A stretch of 36,604 bases of DNA from Candidatus Ventrenecus avicola (lineage in GTDB: Bacteria; Bacillota_I; Bacilli_A; RF39; UBA660), in the NCBI GenBank assembly GCA_018711945.1, contig DVHP01000017.1:1-36604 (forward strand), in the 5' to 3' direction. A program made the position numbers and the translations under genes. The notes under the pieces were generated by a model. The model saw only the letters and a program-made list of their open reading frames with translations, searched no databases and was not told the origin of the DNA. How positions within the stretch are numbered: position 1 is the first letter of the stretch; the number at the start of each line of letters is the position of its first letter. Shown piece by piece: positions 15,706 through 25,478 of this stretch.

Positions 15706-18114
15706 ATGAAAAAAGGCTTTACATTAGTAGAACTATTAGCAGTAATTGCAATTTTATCAATCTTAGCAATTATAGCAGTACCTACATACAATGTAGTAAG
15801 CAACCGTATTAAACAAAGTACCTATGAAACAAAAGTTCAAAATATTATATCTAGAGCGGAAGAATATGCAGAAAATTCAAATCGCTATGTATTTGATGTA
15901 GGTACATTGATAGAACAAGGGTTGCTAGAATCGGATAATGAAGCTTCACAGTATTTAGATCCTAGAACAGGTCGTGATATGCGTTGTGATATCATTAATG
16001 TTGTGTTTGAAAACAATCAATATGTAGCAAGTATTACAGAGAGCGAAACTTGTTATACCGATGAAGAATTAGAAAACCTTTTTGGAATGTTTGAAATTAA
16101 AATCTATCGGCCAGATGGTACAGAAGTGGAACCAATCGAAGGAACGGATTGGATACGGGAACAGGATGTAATATTAAAATACGAAATAAAAGACACGTAT
16201 CAAGACTATATGGACGACATTACACAGATTATTTGGTCCGGTGAGGCAGAAAAAGTATGTGAACAAAACGATTTAAGTGCATGTGATGAATATGAAATAC
16301 ATACAGATGTCATAAAAAATGTAACCGTAAATCTTCAAATTAATCTAAATATTAATGGCAGCACAATCATTAGCCGAACAAATAAAAAAGTATTAGTAGA
16401 TTTAGAAAATCCAAGCATTGATAACATTGTTACAGGAACCGACTTAAATGAACAAGAAAAAAATAAAACAGAATTTGATTTAAGTGATGGCAATGGATCA
16501 GGAGTAAAATATTATGCAATTCTCTCAGGAGAAAGTAGTTGTAGTGGCGAAGCCTATGAATCTGCAAGAAAAACAATAAATAGCAACCATATAGTAGAAT
16601 ATCTTGACAGTGGAGAATATACCATCTGTGTAGAAGATAATGTAGGAAATACTGGACAAGGAAGTGTATCTCTAAGAGAAATTAACTTCGATGCCAATGG
16701 AGGAACAGTAGATATAGATAAAAAAGTAATAGGCACGAACACGAGTTATGGAGTTATGCCAACACCAACGAGAGAATATTATCATTTCTTGGGATGGTTT
16801 ACATCACCATCAGGAGGAACTGAAGTCACAACAGATACCATTTTAACAGAAAATACTACAGTATATGCACATTGGCAAATATATACTTATACAATCTCGT
16901 ATAATGCCAATGGTGGATCAGGTGCACCAGCATCCCAAACCAAAACCCATGGAGTAAATCTAACATTATCCACGACAAAACCAACAAGAACTGGATATAC
17001 ATTCTTAGGATGGAGTACATCTTCCACAGCAACTAGTGCCACATATACAGCTGGTGGAACATTTACTCAAAATGCAAATACTACGCTATATGCAGTTTGG
17101 AAAATTAATACATACACGATTACTTATAATGCGAATGGTGGTTCCGTCTCACCTACAACACAGACTAAAAACCACGGAAGTACTTATGGTTCTATGCCAA
17201 CGCCAACCAGAGCAAATCACAAATTCTTAGGATGGTTTACTGCTATAAATGGTGGAACACAAATAACCTCATCTTCTACCGTAACAGGTAATATTACATT
17301 ATATGCACACTGGCAAATCAATGCTTATACAGTGACATATAATTACAGTTATAATGGTGGTACAAGTGCTTCTGCAACCAGCGCAAGTGTTGCTATCGGA
17401 AGTGCAGTAAACTTAAACGTAACTGCAAATAAAAGTGGTTATAACTTCTTAGGATGGAACACGAATGCCAATGCAACTTCCGGATTATCCAGTCTAACAA
17501 TGGGAAATAGTAATATTACACTATATGCTATTTTTAGAAAAACAATTACCGTAACTATGGTCGACTATAATGGAACATCCAAAAGAACTAGAACAGCAAC
17601 TGGTTATGCTTATAACAGAAACACTTCCGCATCAATTACATTAAATACGATCGGAAAATGGAAACATCCATATTGTGGAAATGACCAATTAGATATCGTT
17701 GGTTGGACAACGTCGACTAGTGCAACTGCTGGAGCAAATTATGCATCAGGCGCTACTGCAACATTCTCAAACAATACAACATTGTATGCTAGATACAATC
17801 AATTTCAAAAAATATATATCTATAAAGACACTCTAACGTATCCAGATCCATCTGGAACGCGATATGTAAACTCATATAATATAGAGACTAACGTATATGT
17901 TACAAGTTCTAACTGTACTTATAGTGGAGGCTTATATGGATATTGGACATTTACTTTCCCACAAAATTGTACAGGAAGAAAAAATGGATTTCCATTTAAA
18001 GGATATGCCAATACCTCAGTGAATTATGGTAGTGCAGATTCAGGTTGGTATAAAGCTCCGTTTACTGTCAATTTCTATTGTTCAGAAAACTGGGATTGTC
18101 AATGGGGAAGATAA
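15706..18114 (+). CDS. Pseudopilin-type N-terminus fused to InlB/Listeria-Bacteroides (Flg_new-type) repeats
   Basis: MKKGFTLVELLAVIAILSILAIIAVPTYN (type III signal/prepilin). Repeats such as TYTISYNANGGSGAPASQTKTHGVNLTLSTTKPTRTGYTFLGWSTSSTATSATYTAGGTFTQNANTTLYAVWK. Confidence 0.85.
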   Translation: MKKGFTLVELLAVIAILSILAIIAVPTYNVVSNRIKQSTYETKVQNIISRAEEYAENSNRYVFDVGTLIEQGLLESDNEASQYLDPRTGRDMRCDIINVVFENNQYVASITESETCYTDEELENLFGMFEIKIYRPDGTEVEPIEGTDWIREQDVILKYEIKDTYQDYMDDITQIIWSGEAEKVCEQNDLSACDEYEIHTDVIKNVTVNLQINLNINGSTIISRTNKKVLVDLENPSIDNIVTGTDLNEQEKNKTEFDLSDGNGSGVKYYAILSGESSCSGEAYESARKTINSNHIVEYLDSGEYTICVEDNVGNTGQGSVSLREINFDANGGTVDIDKKVIGTNTSYGVMPTPTREYYHFLGWFTSPSGGTEVTTDTILTENTTVYAHWQIYTYTISYNANGGSGAPASQTKTHGVNLTLSTTKPTRTGYTFLGWSTSSTATSATYTAGGTFTQNANTTLYAVWKINTYTITYNANGGSVSPTTQTKNHGSTYGSMPTPTRANHKFLGWFTAINGGTQITSSSTVTGNITLYAHWQINAYTVTYNYSYNGGTSASATSASVAIGSAVNLNVTANKSGYNFLGWNTNANATSGLSSLTMGNSNITLYAIFRKTITVTMVDYNGTSKRTRTATGYAYNRNTSASITLNTIGKWKHPYCGNDQLDIVGWTTSTSATAGANYASGATATFSNNTTLYARYNQFQKIYIYKDTLTYPDPSGTRYVNSYNIETNVYVTSSNCTYSGGLYGYWTFTFPQNCTGRKNGFPFKGYANTSVNYGSADSGWYKAPFTVNFYCSENWDCQWGR
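16681..17800 (+). repeat. About five tandem InlB-type repeats at protein level
   Basis: Recurring (I/T)xYxANGG...GYxFLGWxT...NxTLYAxW units within the 802-aa ORF; the last unit is divergent. Confidence 0.8.
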
Positions 18115-18692: not shown

Positions 18693-20621
18693 TTAATCTT
18701 CTTCTTTTGTGACTGGAACCATTTCTGTTTCAGTTCCCTTTACATAATAAAATACCGTACTATTCTTACTATCTGTAGTTTGCTCTCCAGTAATTCCATC
18801 ACGAATAAGTCCAATGACATTTTGAGGAGTTTCATACCAGCGCGGTTCTACATCTATAAGATAACTTTCCAAAGTGTCCAGCCAAATATTTTTAGAATAA
18901 TAACTAGCGGTACTATCAATTTCTTCTGCATCATCATTTCCAACCCAAACCATCATTAAAACATCAGGATTATAACCAGCTACCCAAGAATCCGTATTTG
19001 TTGTTCCAGTTTTCAAAGCATACTTTCGGCTCATTTTAGATGCCAAAGACAACGCTGTTGGCGTAGTATAATCGGAATATGCTGAATTTGTAGTGCTCGT
19101 TAAAAGTTCATTTAAAATATAAACGTCATTACTATTAAAAACATAATCATGTTTCTGTTTAAATTCATATAACACATTACCATCCAAATCTTCAACACGC
19201 GTAATAAAATGTAGCTCTTGTTTATCGCCACCGTTTGCCAAAGTTGTATATCCGGTTGCAAAGTCCATCATATTAAGTTCACTTGTCCCTAAAGCAAGTG
19301 AAGGGTTACCAGCAATTTCCTCTTTGATACCTGCACGACGAGCTGTATCAACCAACACATCCGTCCCCAAAAACAAATGTGTTTTTACAGCATAAATATT
19401 ATCAGAAAAAGCAATTGCTGCTGCCATTGTAATATCTTTATTTGCATAAATATTATTATAATTACTAGGAGAATAGAGTTGATCATTAGAAAAATTAAAG
19501 GTAGTTTTTTCACTTTTAAAAGTAGAAGAAGCTACTAATCCATTTTCTAGGGCAGCATAATATAAAAATGGTTTCATAGTACTACCAACTTGCCGTTTAC
19601 TCATCGTTGCACGATTATATTGACTTTTTGCATAATTAAGGCCTCCAGTTAAAGCAAGTACTCCTCCATCAGAAGGATTTACCATCACACTAGCAACTTG
19701 TAATTCCTCTTGATTTCCCATATACTTTAAAATATTTTCTTCCATTTTTGTTTGAGCGTCCATATCAAATGCAGTATAAATTTTAAGACCTCCAGATTCA
19801 ATTAAAGAATTAGGAACCGAATCAATTTCCTCTAATTCATCCAATACAGCATCTTGATAATACATAATCATCTGGGAATTATTTTGAGTTCGCTGACCAT
19901 ATATTTCTACCTTATCTTGAAAGAGTTCATTGTATTCTTCTTCTGTAATATAACCATTTTTTAACATAGAGTCTGCCACAATCCAAGCTCTCTCAATACA
20001 AGCATCATAGTCACTCACAGGATTATAATTACTAGGATTTTTAGGGATACCAGCAAGCATAATAGCCTCTTCAAGAGTTAAATCCTTGCTACTCTTATTA
20101 AAATAATACTTACTAGCATCTTCGATACCATAATTTCCTTCTCCATAATTAATCGTATTTAAATATCCTTCCAAAATTGCATCTTTGTCATAATGAACTT
20201 CAAGTTGCACGGTTAAAAATGCTTCTTCAATTTTACGGCTCCATGTCTGATCAAAGGTTAAAAACATATTCTTAATATATTGCTGACTGATAGTAGAAGC
20301 CCCAACACGCGTATTATTCGCAATGTTAGAAAAGAAAGCTTTCACAATTCTTGGAATGTCAAACCCTTGATGAGAATAAAAATTTTTGTCTTCGACACTG
20401 ACTACAGCATCTTTAAGATCGGGAGAAATATCACTTAAACTGATCCATTCGCTCGATCCACTTCCTTGATAGATTAAATTTTCTTCGTGATCATAGATAA
20501 AAACTTTACCCATATTTTCAAGTTCTAACCTCGGCGAAAAAAATGCATAAACATAGACTCCTAAAATTAATACAACACAAGACAACCCAAAAAATATTCC
20601 AGTTTTAATAGCCTTCTTCAT
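18693..20621 (-). CDS. Class A penicillin-binding protein (glycosyltransferase plus transpeptidase)
   Basis: VSVEDKNFYSHQGFDIPRIVKAFFSNIANNTRVGASTISQQYIKN (GT51); transpeptidase SxxK KRQVGSTMKPF, KTGTTNTDSWVAGYNP. ATG 20621 with AGGTGA Shine-Dalgarno favoured. Confidence 0.94.
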   Translation of the reverse strand: MKKAIKTGIFFGLSCVVLILGVYVYAFFSPRLELENMGKVFIYDHEENLIYQGSGSSEWISLSDISPDLKDAVVSVEDKNFYSHQGFDIPRIVKAFFSNIANNTRVGASTISQQYIKNMFLTFDQTWSRKIEEAFLTVQLEVHYDKDAILEGYLNTINYGEGNYGIEDASKYYFNKSSKDLTLEEAIMLAGIPKNPSNYNPVSDYDACIERAWIVADSMLKNGYITEEEYNELFQDKVEIYGQRTQNNSQMIMYYQDAVLDELEEIDSVPNSLIESGGLKIYTAFDMDAQTKMEENILKYMGNQEELQVASVMVNPSDGGVLALTGGLNYAKSQYNRATMSKRQVGSTMKPFLYYAALENGLVASSTFKSEKTTFNFSNDQLYSPSNYNNIYANKDITMAAAIAFSDNIYAVKTHLFLGTDVLVDTARRAGIKEEIAGNPSLALGTSELNMMDFATGYTTLANGGDKQELHFITRVEDLDGNVLYEFKQKHDYVFNSNDVYILNELLTSTTNSAYSDYTTPTALSLASKMSRKYALKTGTTNTDSWVAGYNPDVLMMVWVGNDDAEEIDSTASYYSKNIWLDTLESYLIDVEPRWYETPQNVIGLIRDGITGEQTTDSKNSTVFYYVKGTETEMVPVTKEED

Positions 20622-20729
20622 GGCATTCACCTATCATGTAGTATGGAAAAAAAAGAAAGAAATATAAGAAAAAGTTGTAAAAGTGAGAAAAAATATGGTT
20701 TAATAGAAGATGCGTAGGAGCTGACTGAC

Positions 20730-21983
20730 ATGAAAAACACAGCAGAATTAGAATTAGAGAATTTACAAGAAGAATTAAAAAGCTATAATAAAGAAGCCGA
20801 AGCATTCCTTTCATTTGTGAAATTCCAAAGTTATGTTGAAAGTGTTAAAAATAAAAGAATGCTAGACTGCGTTTTTGGAAGTCAATTATATTTGAATTTT
20901 CTTCATGCTTTTGCAAATGTAACCATATCTTACAAAAACTTTAATATAGAAGAAAGATATCAAAAAAATCAAGATAATAGGAAGAGGATTTTAAAAAAAT
21001 TACAAATCATCCAAACCAAAAAAATGAGACTTTCTAAAGAAACAACACAATTAATAAAACAAAGTGCTGAAAATGAAAAGAAAATTTTCTCGATTTTTTC
21101 TAATTTGAATCAAAAAGATACTCTTAAAACCACTCCTAATTTATTTATAGATGCAATATCAAACTGTAGTTATTGTTTGATGACGTTTCAAGAATCTTTT
21201 GGAGAAGAAAAAACAGAAATACCTCTACAAATAGAATTTTTAAAAGATATTATAATGTATTTTGAAGAAAGGGAAAAACAAAATGATTTATATACAATCA
21301 TCCAAGCCATATTTTCTTATGATAGGCGAATACCTGATAATATATGGGAAAAAAGACAGGCTATACAGATTACATTTAGAGAAACGGAAAAAGAATTTCA
21401 ACAATTACTAATGTATGCAAAAAACAACTATAGTCTATTAGAAATACTACTTCGATTTCATTTAATAGATTCTAAAAATTTAATACTAGAAAGCGAAAAA
21501 GGAAAACACTCTATTTTATCATTAGAATTAGAGGAAAACTTTTCTATAGATTCTCATAATGAATTTTTATCTTCCTGTTATTTGTTATATGAAAATTTAG
21601 AATTACCAAAAGAGGTAAGAGATAACGACGATATAGAAATATTACGTAAAATAAATGTAGAAGATTTAAGTTTTCTATTATACAGTAAAAAATTTATAAT
21701 GACCGAATCAAAATTAGAAGAAATTATAAAAAGGATAAGAATGTATACACTTAGTAAAAATTTTCAGTTTCAGGTGATAGAAGATATTTGGAAATCTTTA
21801 TCTTTAAAAACATCTCATGACAATCAGGCATATTTAGAAAAGTTGGAAAACGAAACAGATAGAAATAAAATAGCAGAAAGACGTAGATTAATTGCAAAAT
21901 TTCAATCAATATTGATATATTTTAAAGAAAATATAGACCAACAGAATGCAATAAAAATATTAAAAAGAAAGAATAGAAAATAA
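20730..21983 (+). CDS. Hypothetical helical protein, paralogue of 22172..23368 over the C-terminal half
   Basis: No recognised domain. Shares KEVRDNDDIEILRKINVEDLSFLLYSKKFIMTESKLEEIIKRI and a C-terminal ERRRLIAKFQSIL with the next long ORF. Confidence 0.7.
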   Translation: MKNTAELELENLQEELKSYNKEAEAFLSFVKFQSYVESVKNKRMLDCVFGSQLYLNFLHAFANVTISYKNFNIEERYQKNQDNRKRILKKLQIIQTKKMRLSKETTQLIKQSAENEKKIFSIFSNLNQKDTLKTTPNLFIDAISNCSYCLMTFQESFGEEKTEIPLQIEFLKDIIMYFEEREKQNDLYTIIQAIFSYDRRIPDNIWEKRQAIQITFRETEKEFQQLLMYAKNNYSLLEILLRFHLIDSKNLILESEKGKHSILSLELEENFSIDSHNEFLSSCYLLYENLELPKEVRDNDDIEILRKINVEDLSFLLYSKKFIMTESKLEEIIKRIRMYTLSKNFQFQVIEDIWKSLSLKTSHDNQAYLEKLENETDRNKIAERRRLIAKFQSILIYFKENIDQQNAIKILKRKNRK

Positions 21984-22057
21984 AAGTTTTAACAGGTATA
22001 GAAAAAGCTTGCAAATAAAACAAAAAGATGCTTTAATAATCGAAAAGGAGAGAAATT

Positions 22058-22162
22058 ATGGAAAGAAAAAAAGTACAAAGTGAAAAAGAAACAAAGTTAG
22101 AAATGATTCAAAAGTTAAAAAGAAAATATTCCAAAAAAGTAAGCAGATATTTCAATAATTAA
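22058..22162 (+). CDS. Small basic peptide ORF (34 aa)
   Basis: Manually translated: MERKKVQSEKETKLEMIQKLKRKYSKKVSRYFNN; ATG preceded by AAAGGAGAG. Confidence 0.45.
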   Translation: MERKKVQSEKETKLEMIQKLKRKYSKKVSRYFNN

Positions 22163-22171
22163 AATGCTCTA

Positions 22172-23368
22172 TTGTCCTTGATAAGCATGGAAGAAATGGG
22201 AAAAATGAACAAGTATAGTGTGCCACTTTTAATGGCCTATCAAACTACAGAAAACTTTATCAAAGCTTATTCTGCTCCTGGAGTGACAGTTCCCTATAAA
22301 AATGTAAAAGTGTCAAAAATAATTGACGATTTAGAACAAGAAAAAAGACAAATTCGTTCAGATTATTATTTAGACTACCATAATGAAATTTTAGAAAACT
22401 CTCTAGATCAAGACATGGACTTAAGTGAAATGAATTATATAATAGATAAATTATTTGATTCAGAATTTTCTTTGGATGAATTAGCTGAAATAATAGAAGA
22501 TGAAAATATAGAATATATTCAAAATGCCTTTCTATCAACAATGGATATTCGCTCAATATATGGTCTTTGTCTAGAACAAATATTATTTTCAGATATCCCA
22601 ATCGCTTTACGTTGTGAAATGTTAGAAGATATGATTGGAAATTGTAAAAATATAAAAGAATTGAAAGGAAAGCTATCTTATTTTGGAGAATTTGAATATT
22701 TAGCAGATGAAGAGCCCGTGAGAATTTGGAAAAATTATGGATACAAGCAAGACGAGTTACAAAGTTATTTTAAAGAAAATAGCATAAAATTCCAACAAGC
22801 TTTGATGTTTACTCCAAATAGTATTCTAATAATTAAGGCTCTACATGATCGAGCATTTATAAATTATAATCAGTTGATAATGGAAACCAAAGAAAACCAG
22901 AAGCAGTCTGTATTGTCCATATGTTTTGATGAAGCAGCTAAATATTCTAAGGATTATGAAACGATATGTAGAAATATCTGTATTTCCAAGGACGTGAGAG
23001 ACAATGACGATATAGCTATAATTAAAAAAATAGATATAAAAGAACTATATCGTGTAATTAATCATTCTCAATTTATATTAACTGAACAAAAATTAGACGT
23101 CATATTAAGAAGAATACAAAAACACGTCTTAGAAAGCGATGACTTCGCACCAATTGAAAAGATATACGATGCCCTAAACAATAAATCATCTGTTACCGAG
23201 ACAGATTTAGGAAGGGTATCTACACAAATATCTTCAAAAACAATTAATGAACGTCGTAAGTTGATACAAAAACTAATATCTATACTAAGGTTTGTGAGTA
23301 AACAAAGTGAAGACATACAAGTGGGTGAAGTACTGACAAGAGTAAGAGCAAGAAAGGATGAAAATTAG
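22172..23368 (+). CDS. Hypothetical helical protein, paralogue of 20730..21983
   Basis: KDVRDNDDIAIIKKIDIKELYRVINHSQFILTEQKLDVILRRI and NERRKLIQKLISIL match the upstream paralogue. Start uncertain: TTG 22172 or an internal ATG. Confidence 0.68.
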   Translation: MSLISMEEMGKMNKYSVPLLMAYQTTENFIKAYSAPGVTVPYKNVKVSKIIDDLEQEKRQIRSDYYLDYHNEILENSLDQDMDLSEMNYIIDKLFDSEFSLDELAEIIEDENIEYIQNAFLSTMDIRSIYGLCLEQILFSDIPIALRCEMLEDMIGNCKNIKELKGKLSYFGEFEYLADEEPVRIWKNYGYKQDELQSYFKENSIKFQQALMFTPNSILIIKALHDRAFINYNQLIMETKENQKQSVLSICFDEAAKYSKDYETICRNICISKDVRDNDDIAIIKKIDIKELYRVINHSQFILTEQKLDVILRRIQKHVLESDDFAPIEKIYDALNNKSSVTETDLGRVSTQISSKTINERRKLIQKLISILRFVSKQSEDIQVGEVLTRVRARKDEN

Positions 23369-23425
23369 TCCTTTTTTTTCTTGCCCATCCATGATATAAT
23401 GTTCCGGAAAAAAAGAGGTGACTCG

Positions 23426-23779
23426 ATGAATTATAAATGTAAAATTACCTTAACAAACGGCGAAAATATCGTACTAGAAGAAGAAAATGTTAAGGGAGTC
23501 TTAGAAGATGACGTATTATACTTTACTTTAGACGATATGTCACATATTCTTGATTTTAACAAAAAAACATTCTTAAGAGAAAACGATGAGTATTCATTTT
23601 TATTAGATATAGAAAACGAGAAAAGTGAAATAAATTTGAAAAAAGAACAATATAACTTGCAAGTCTTAGTAGAATATGCTAATCTATTGAAGAATAAAAA
23701 TGACATTCAATTATCTTATTTTATTGAAACAGACAACAATGAAAATGTCTTAAAAATAGAATTGATAGGTGAAAAATAA
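23426..23779 (+). CDS. DUF1934/YwiB-like beta-barrel protein
   Basis: Small beta-rich ORF immediately upstream of argS, as ywiB is in Bacillus. ATG 23426 with AGAGGTG Shine-Dalgarno. Confidence 0.55.
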   Translation: MNYKCKITLTNGENIVLEEENVKGVLEDDVLYFTLDDMSHILDFNKKTFLRENDEYSFLLDIENEKSEINLKKEQYNLQVLVEYANLLKNKNDIQLSYFIETDNNENVLKIELIGEK

Positions 23780-25478
23780 AGTGATAATAGAAAAAATAGA
23801 AGAAAAATTACAAAACGTGTTAGAAAGTTGTGGTTATGAATTACCAGCCAAAATTATCCCATCTAATCGAAAAGACTTATGTGATTACCAATTCGATGGC
23901 TCATTTTCTTATGCAAAAGTTCTCCATAAAAGCCCGATCGAAATTAGCGAAAGCATAGTTGAAATGTGGGGAAGTATTTATAAAGACGATCCAGATTTTA
24001 AAAAAATAGAAGCAGTAAAACCGGGATTCATTAATTTTACATTAAGCGATAAATTTATAAACGAAACATTAAACAAAATGAATGAAGAACCTAAGTTTGG
24101 CATAAAGATGCCTAAAAAAGAAACGATCGTAATTGATTATGGTGGTCCAAATATTGCGAAACCTCTTCATGTGGGACACTTGAGAAGCGCAATAGTAGGA
24201 GAGTCTATCAAAAGGATATTAGAGTATTTTGATTATAACGTCATCAGTGATGTACACCTAGGAGATTACGGCTTACAAATTGGGCAAGTAATCTATGGAT
24301 TAAAGCAAGAAAATATTGTGCTAGAAGATATTACTATCGAAATACTAGACAGAATTTATCCCGAGATGAGCGCACTTTGTAAAAGTGATGAAAAAATAAA
24401 AGAAGAATGTGCTCAAATTACCAAAGAATTACAAGATGGAAATCAAGAATATCAAGAATATTTTGAAAAGATCAAAGAAGTTTCTCTAAAAGATATTAAA
24501 AGAATTTATGATTACTTAGATGTTCATTTTGATTATTGGTTCGGAGAAGCAGATTCTTATAAATACATTCCAAAATTAACGGAAGAACTAGAAAATAAAA
24601 AATTACTAAAACTAAGCGAAGGAGCAAAGATCATTGATGTAAAAAAAGATACGGATGAACTAGAAATTCCCCCACTTATCTATCAAAAACAAAATGGTGC
24701 TTACCTTTATGGAACAACAGACTTAGCAACTATTTACCAAAGAATGAATGACTATCATCCAAATAAAATACTATATGTAACAGATTTAAGACAAGCGCTA
24801 CATTTTAAACAAGTATTCCGTGTTTGTGAAAAATTAGGATATACTAAAGAGACTTCTTTTGAACATCTTGGCTTTGGTACTGTGAACGGAAGTGACGGAA
24901 AACCATATAAAACAAGAGCAGGCTCTGCTCCAAAACTAGATACCTTATTCAAAGAAACCAAAGAAGCCTTTCTTGCATCAAATCCTAAAAATGATGCGAT
25001 GGATGAAAGCGATTTAGATATTTTAGTAAATGCAATTATTAAATTTGCCGATTTACAAAACAATCGAGAAAAAGATTATATCTTTGATATCAACAAATTT
25101 TCAACCGTCATTGGAAAAACAGGACCTTATATCCTATATACCTATTTAAGAATCAATAGCATTTTAGAAAAAGAACAATATATTATCACATGCTTAGATA
25201 ATCAAATTTATAATGAAACAGATCGTGAATTAAGAATAAAATTACTGGAATTAGAAAATACTTTAAAATATAGCCTTGATACAAGACTTCCATCTGTTCT
25301 AGCTAACTATTTATATGAAATTTGCGTAAATATGAATGCTTTTTATGAAAAGAATCATATTAATAATCTAGAAGATAGAAATAAAAAAGAAAATTGGTTA
25401 CTATTACTTACACTAGCAAACAAAATATTAAAAGAAATGCTAGAACTATTAAGTATAAAAATACCAAAGAAAATGTAA
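23769..25478 (+). CDS. argS: Arginine--tRNA ligase
   Basis: DYGGPNIAKPLHVGHLRSAIVGESIKRILEYFDYNVISDVHLGDYGLQIG; GTVNGSDGKPYKTRAG. The GTG at 23781 is an alternative start. Confidence 0.96.
   Translation: MKNKVIIEKIEEKLQNVLESCGYELPAKIIPSNRKDLCDYQFDGSFSYAKVLHKSPIEISESIVEMWGSIYKDDPDFKKIEAVKPGFINFTLSDKFINETLNKMNEEPKFGIKMPKKETIVIDYGGPNIAKPLHVGHLRSAIVGESIKRILEYFDYNVISDVHLGDYGLQIGQVIYGLKQENIVLEDITIEILDRIYPEMSALCKSDEKIKEECAQITKELQDGNQEYQEYFEKIKEVSLKDIKRIYDYLDVHFDYWFGEADSYKYIPKLTEELENKKLLKLSEGAKIIDVKKDTDELEIPPLIYQKQNGAYLYGTTDLATIYQRMNDYHPNKILYVTDLRQALHFKQVFRVCEKLGYTKETSFEHLGFGTVNGSDGKPYKTRAGSAPKLDTLFKETKEAFLASNPKNDAMDESDLDILVNAIIKFADLQNNREKDYIFDINKFSTVIGKTGPYILYTYLRINSILEKEQYIITCLDNQIYNETDRELRIKLLELENTLKYSLDTRLPSVLANYLYEICVNMNAFYEKNHINNLEDRNKKENWLLLLTLANKILKEMLELLSIKIPKKM

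Follow-up and report, generated by a model that had tools for sequence, protein, structure and literature searches.

The closest described counterparts of the proteins treated here are the novel gene families exclusive to uncultivated prokaryotes (FESNov), of which 404,085 have been catalogued (Rodriguez del Rio et al., PMC10849945), and, concerning parts of the structure, the ankyrin-repeat proteins (Pfam PF12796 and relatives) and the ARM/HEAT/Pumilio alpha-solenoids (designed ARM 5mfl, Pumilio 3bsb, beta-catenin). The window, i.e., the whole analysed stretch of 36,604 nucleotides, contains two related genes, P1 and P2, which define a genuine, so far undescribed family of orphan proteins from a large, uncultured group of gut bacteria. 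Equally to FESNov families (PMC10849945), this family occurs in several species, is under purifying selection, is confined (here) to uncultivated taxa, and matches no curated family, whereas it is more scattered in occurrence and less tightly constrained than would be expected of a lineage marker. None of the curated libraries searched contains it, but its kind, the orphan families of uncultivated taxa, is well known (PMC10849945). Orphan families of this kind being very numerous (PMC10849945), the present one matters not for a new mechanism but for a definition of the family that can be put to use, backed by an alignment, a reasonably good structural model, and an evolutionary pattern that is clear (an optional gene, duplicated and recombining). 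Concerning the pair itself, which had been described as a common C-terminal region with different front parts, it is now to be read as one domain throughout, with one of the two copies truncated.

Comparison with described protein families

In line with the earlier note, which recognised no family, neither P1 nor P2 has a significant match in Pfam or NCBIfam, and no score for these curated families exceeds the curated cut-off. A strong match to any characterised family was searched for widely with a negative result: sequence searches of Pfam, NCBIfam, PHROGs, PADLOC, and the PDB yielded isolated chance-level matches only, and none was significant among the phage protein families (PHROGs) or among the known families of anti-phage defence (PADLOC), where the best one reached E 0.005 in a single member. 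Citrate synthase, DUF1411, HEC-01A, and Cmr5 (Pfam/PADLOC, E 0.003-0.02) were each matched by one member and were dismissed as chance. A match to ZorA in the PDB (E 0.12), which covers the long N-terminal helix only, was rejected as well. A phage, plasmid, or viral origin was likewise rejected, as no relative of the family was found in the phage, plasmid, and viral collections.

The proteins had been supposed to be cytosolic and mostly helical, and both expectations held. No transmembrane segment is seen in P1 or P2, which thus appear to be cytosolic, and the AlphaFold model of P1, predicted from six sequences (pLDDT 83.3, pTM 0.73), consists mostly of helices. It begins with a helix of 37 residues, continues with helices and short strands, and contains a hairpin at residues 252-261. 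The first helix and the hairpin are again present in the low-confidence model of another member, L048 (pLDDT 66). Foldseek searches with the P1 model against the PDB and a viral library returned nothing at E < 0.001; the weak top matches (E 0.02-0.2, TM-score about 0.15-0.30) are mostly ARM, Pumilio, HEAT, and ankyrin proteins. With ARM/HEAT/Pumilio solenoids the model has stacked helices in common, but significance is not reached (best E 0.023, TM 0.17), neither the beta-hairpin nor the long N-terminal helix is typical of solenoids, and the self-comparison of the family profile revealed no internal repeat. The predicted resemblance is therefore one of fold class at best. Ankyrin repeats came into consideration because of a 'GIDVN...G..S' stretch: ankyrin-repeat proteins have a similar succession of helix, 'GIDVN'-like turn, hairpin, and helix, and viral ankyrin proteins are among the weak fold matches of P1. 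They were discarded, as the hits of 15 members included no ankyrin family of Pfam, the profile comparison of the family with six ankyrin proteins gave a probability below 1%, and the family profile compared with itself showed no internal repeat, tandem repeats of 33 residues included.

Organization of the gene pair

P1 (20730-21983, + strand) encodes a full-length family member of 417 aa, predicted to be all-helical except for the hairpin. P2 (22205-23368, + strand) is an N-terminally truncated member of 387 aa if read from ATG 22205, or of 398 aa if read from TTG 22172. Both open reading frames of the earlier note, 20730-21983 and 22172-23368, were found again, and the C-terminal motifs quoted there are present in both proteins (BLASTP, 31% identity over 217 aa, E 4e-17). 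The N-terminal halves, however, do not differ in kind as had been claimed. P1 and P2 are homologous over nearly their entire length: with P1 as query against its own genome, residues 8-406 align to 22094-23320, across an in-frame TAA. A profile of the N-terminal half, built without P1 and P2 from relatives only such that circularity was avoided, matches the N-terminal part of P1 with 43 bits (E 1.4e-12) and that of P2 from ATG 22205 with E 5e-13, the latter rising to 54 bits (E 3.5e-16) when the codons preceding the stop are added; the best of 400 shuffled controls reached 10.3 bits. Since this profile matches both, they represent one type of protein and not a common domain with different front ends, and the N- as well as the C-terminal halves of both fit the family profile. 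A divergent N-terminal function, as proposed before, is thus not indicated; the N-termini are the same family domain, which in P2 lacks the first helix owing to the stop codon.

Upstream of P1, a probable promoter is formed by TTGTAA (20675-20680) and TTTAAT (20699-20704), separated by 18 nt (20675-20704, + strand), and followed by the ribosome-binding sequence TAGGAG (20715-20720, + strand) 9 nt 5' of ATG 20730. The A-rich block, the TTG..., and the TTTAATA of this promoter are conserved upstream of P2 and of the gene copies in three congeners (G166, G129, and G159), of which G166 is Candidatus Ventrenecus stercoripullorum (DVGF01000044). The probable promoter of P2 (22009-22037, + strand), with TTGCAA (22009-22014), a spacer of 17 nt, and TTTAAT (22032-22037), hardly differs from the promoter of the single gene of Cand. 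V. stercoripullorum, and the same is true of the whole 5' flank of P2; the sequence AAAGGAG (22044-22050, + strand), the ribosome-binding site of the original start, is identical in both. P1 and P2 thus probably each have a separate promoter, and the two are of one type. No RNA element was found in the P1/P2 region.

Between this site and the P2 frame lies an open reading frame of 34 codons (MERKK...YFNN*; 22058-22162, + strand), which is in frame with P2 and ends at TAA 22160-22162. The match to the family profile continues through this stop, and the codons 5' of it raise the family score by about 10 bits. The frame starting at TTG 22172 is real, but its natural start lies elsewhere: judging from the sequence, P2 probably began at ATG 22058, and a likely restart is ATG 22205, with GGAAGA about 9 nt upstream, whereas TTG 22172 has no ribosome site. 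P2 would accordingly have been full length formerly and would now produce, at most, a protein without the first long helix. An error of sequencing or assembly at the stop, which would leave P2 a full-length functional paralogue and which would fit any reading of the function, appears unlikely. The window stems from a draft assembly (144 contigs, 77% complete) and no further stop interrupts P2, but the base concerned is called unambiguously and an ATG for a restart, preceded by a ribosome site, is at hand; a second genome of Candidatus Ventrenecus avicola for comparison of the stop was not found.

Distribution of the family

The earlier note had spoken of a family of two members. The relatedness of the pair stands, but the family is larger: profile searches revealed about 25 proteins, 390-470 aa in length and all from one bacterial family. 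As the first look of these searches was loose, this and the following genome counts are lower bounds. Within the genus of the window, the gene is present in 4/37 species genomes, namely in two copies in the present one and in one full-length copy each, at the same place as P1 and P2, in G166, G129, and G159. Members from this genus and from other genera are clearly related (hhalign probability 99.3, E 1e-20, 328 columns). Ten of 386 genomes drawn from the bacterial family gave a match, one of which (G047) proved false, and in a draw from the order 13 of 385 genomes did so, covering 8/117 genera; among 296 genomes drawn from the whole class, matches were confined to the bacterial family of the window. 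In one other genus, 8/17 genomes gave a match. The order in question is RF39 of the GTDB. Other genera of RF39 are listed in PMC8035907. A putative fifth hit in the genus of the window (G138) was weak, overlapped another open reading frame, and was discarded; the weak hits in G138, G001, G198, G378, and G047 lie inside other genes (for a Tex-like protein, a sporulation ATPase, and HisS) or overlap the reading frame of a surface protein. The family is best seen as a dispensable, fast-evolving accessory gene with a patchy occurrence in related uncultured gut bacteria.

Duplication, recombination, and selection

P1 and P2 arose by duplication, as had been suggested. The supposition that this duplication was lineage-specific holds only insofar as the family itself is restricted to a lineage: in the maximum-likelihood tree, P1 and the gene of Cand. 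V. stercoripullorum form a group (support 99/94) with P2 outside, such that the duplication predates the split of these two species. Protein identity is 30% between P1 and P2 and 36% between P1 and the Cand. V. stercoripullorum protein, its closest relative, whereas the flanking proteins of the two species are 85-94% identical. A second, independent tandem pair exists in another genome (G024, L098:71-2763), where one copy is without the conserved C-terminal tail.

A recombination boundary is seen at the 3' end of P2 (23238-23368, + strand). Beginning with 23238, the DNA shares 88.7% identity with that of Cand. V. stercoripullorum, and 26 of 36 aligned C-terminal residues are common to both, whereas the body of P2 has only about 25% protein identity to the gene of that species. 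The contrast between body and tail is significant when P1 and P2 are compared (Fisher p 0.0004), although the boundary was chosen post hoc and the test is hence descriptive. As the 5' flank and the last 36 codons of P2 match the Cand. V. stercoripullorum gene, the copies have recombined; the ends of the gene would seem to have stayed with the site, and its core to have been replaced by exchange. Over 23351-23800, DNA identity to the same species peaks at 88-94%, compared with 80-91% further along, which suggests a recent exchange of this flank.

Concerning selection, dN/dS (calculated from the printed dN and dS) is 0.36 for the G129/G159 pair and 0.17-0.26 for pairs in other genera, compared with 0.07, 0.08, and 0.21 for three neighbours of the G129/G159 gene. 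Selection on the family is purifying but weak, with less constraint than on core genes, and the ratios imply that the proteins are probably made and used. It is accordingly very improbable that both copies are non-functional remnants, i.e., decaying orphan genes or chance open frames: the early in-frame stop of P2 and a relative (G559) with a stop inside the matched stretch, maybe its terminator, could be read in this way, but about 25 members retain uninterrupted frames of 390-470 codons despite the A+T-rich DNA, and the promoter sites are conserved along with the purifying ratios. The working copy is probably P1; P2, in turn, would be a shortened variant or else a gene that has begun to decay.

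Conserved core and possible function

The conserved core comprises VRDNDDIxIL..I...DL...L....F..T..K...I..RI in P1 (21615-21749, + strand; residues 296-340) and VRDNDDIAIIKKIDIKELYRVI....FILTEQKLDVILRRI in P2 (22994-23122, + strand). In an alignment of 23 rows, the most conserved columns are R297, D301, and I304 (P1 numbering), with Y284 and I353 also among the most conserved residues of P1; these five look structural and not catalytic. Conservation above 90% is confined to S137, R284, and I291 (L048 numbering), and neither a conserved catalytic set nor a conserved HEPN-like motif was found in the alignment.

Our preferred reading, though a tentative one, is that the family consists of cytosolic, non-enzymatic helical proteins with a binding or scaffold role, encoded by an optional gene. 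P1 and P2 would be anciently duplicated members of a single-domain, all-helical cytosolic protein family restricted to a single family of uncultured gut Bacilli, and a housekeeping-type promoter of its own would drive constitutive expression of each copy. The common fold would comprise the C-terminal core (beta-hairpin, R-x-N-D-D helix cap, and the F..T..K...I..RI helices) together with the conserved long first helix, and the protein would act without catalysis through its helices, the fast-changing middle part fitting a varying partner. As an accessory gene, it would be kept by weak purifying selection in few strains, lost frequently, duplicated in places, and reshuffled through recombination between copies and between species. 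Since the weak best fold matches (E 0.02-0.1) are mostly ARM/HEAT/Pumilio solenoids, which are binding folds, they were counted in favour of a binding role; together with the lack of conserved polar sites, this slender evidence hints at such a role, to which an unusual enzyme or a nucleic-acid binder would be the alternative.

Genomic neighbourhood

The class A penicillin-binding protein gene (18693-20630, - strand) adjoins P1 in divergent orientation. P2 is followed by a small gene (23381-23779) that is conserved in the genus and has no Pfam match, and then by argS and an rpoE-like gene, with housekeeping genes at a greater distance. The small gene occupies the position of ywiB of B. subtilis, and a DUF1934 label would be given by position only.

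Members of the family are solitary and adjoin core genes, and no recurrent partner gene was found beside them. Directly in front of individual members are rplT (G024, G213, G105), rpsR (L048), greA (G205), efp (G497), or serS (G559), the names of the neighbours being read from the sequences only, without a profile test, and in one genus 5/8 members, from five species, are situated directly upstream of a spoIIAA-like/sigma pair. These mostly conserved neighbours could be explained if the protein were a lineage-specific helper of a core process, e.g., of translation or of a sporulation-like sigma-factor switch. We consider this unlikely, as the neighbours vary between genera, most relatives keep them without the gene, and a neutral accessory gene would also survive best if inserted behind conserved operons. 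In a related genus (L125:3697-4706 and L113-L123), a spoIIAA-like gene is followed directly by a sigma-factor gene, often behind dacF, with no spoIIAB-like gene in between.

In the genus of the window, the region from the penicillin-binding protein gene to the small gene before argS (20631-23428) is a cargo site. Among 23 congeners whose argS locus was read, nine have nothing there (gap of 122-232 bp); elsewhere the site is occupied by a transposase-like gene, by genes for membrane proteins, or by genes resembling those of surface proteins. A site which takes such other cargo, the rare and patchy presence of the family, its fast evolution relative to the neighbours, and its allelic mosaicism would also be expected of a single-gene anti-phage defence factor of the abortive-infection type, i.e., a helical sensor or effector diversified in an arms race. 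This explanation is nevertheless doubtful: no PADLOC model was matched above noise, no defence genes were recognised next to members, a catalytic or HEPN-like motif is not conserved, and selection is purifying, not diversifying. Still less probable is the wider proposal of a stand-alone protein of defence or inter-bacterial conflict in gut Bacilli, with a new helical fold, mosaic allele-swapping evolution, and a cargo site beside argS.

Elsewhere in the window, 15706-18114 encodes a protein of 802 aa with an unusual pairing of a prepilin-type N-methylation motif and four List_Bact_rpt (Flg_new) repeats.
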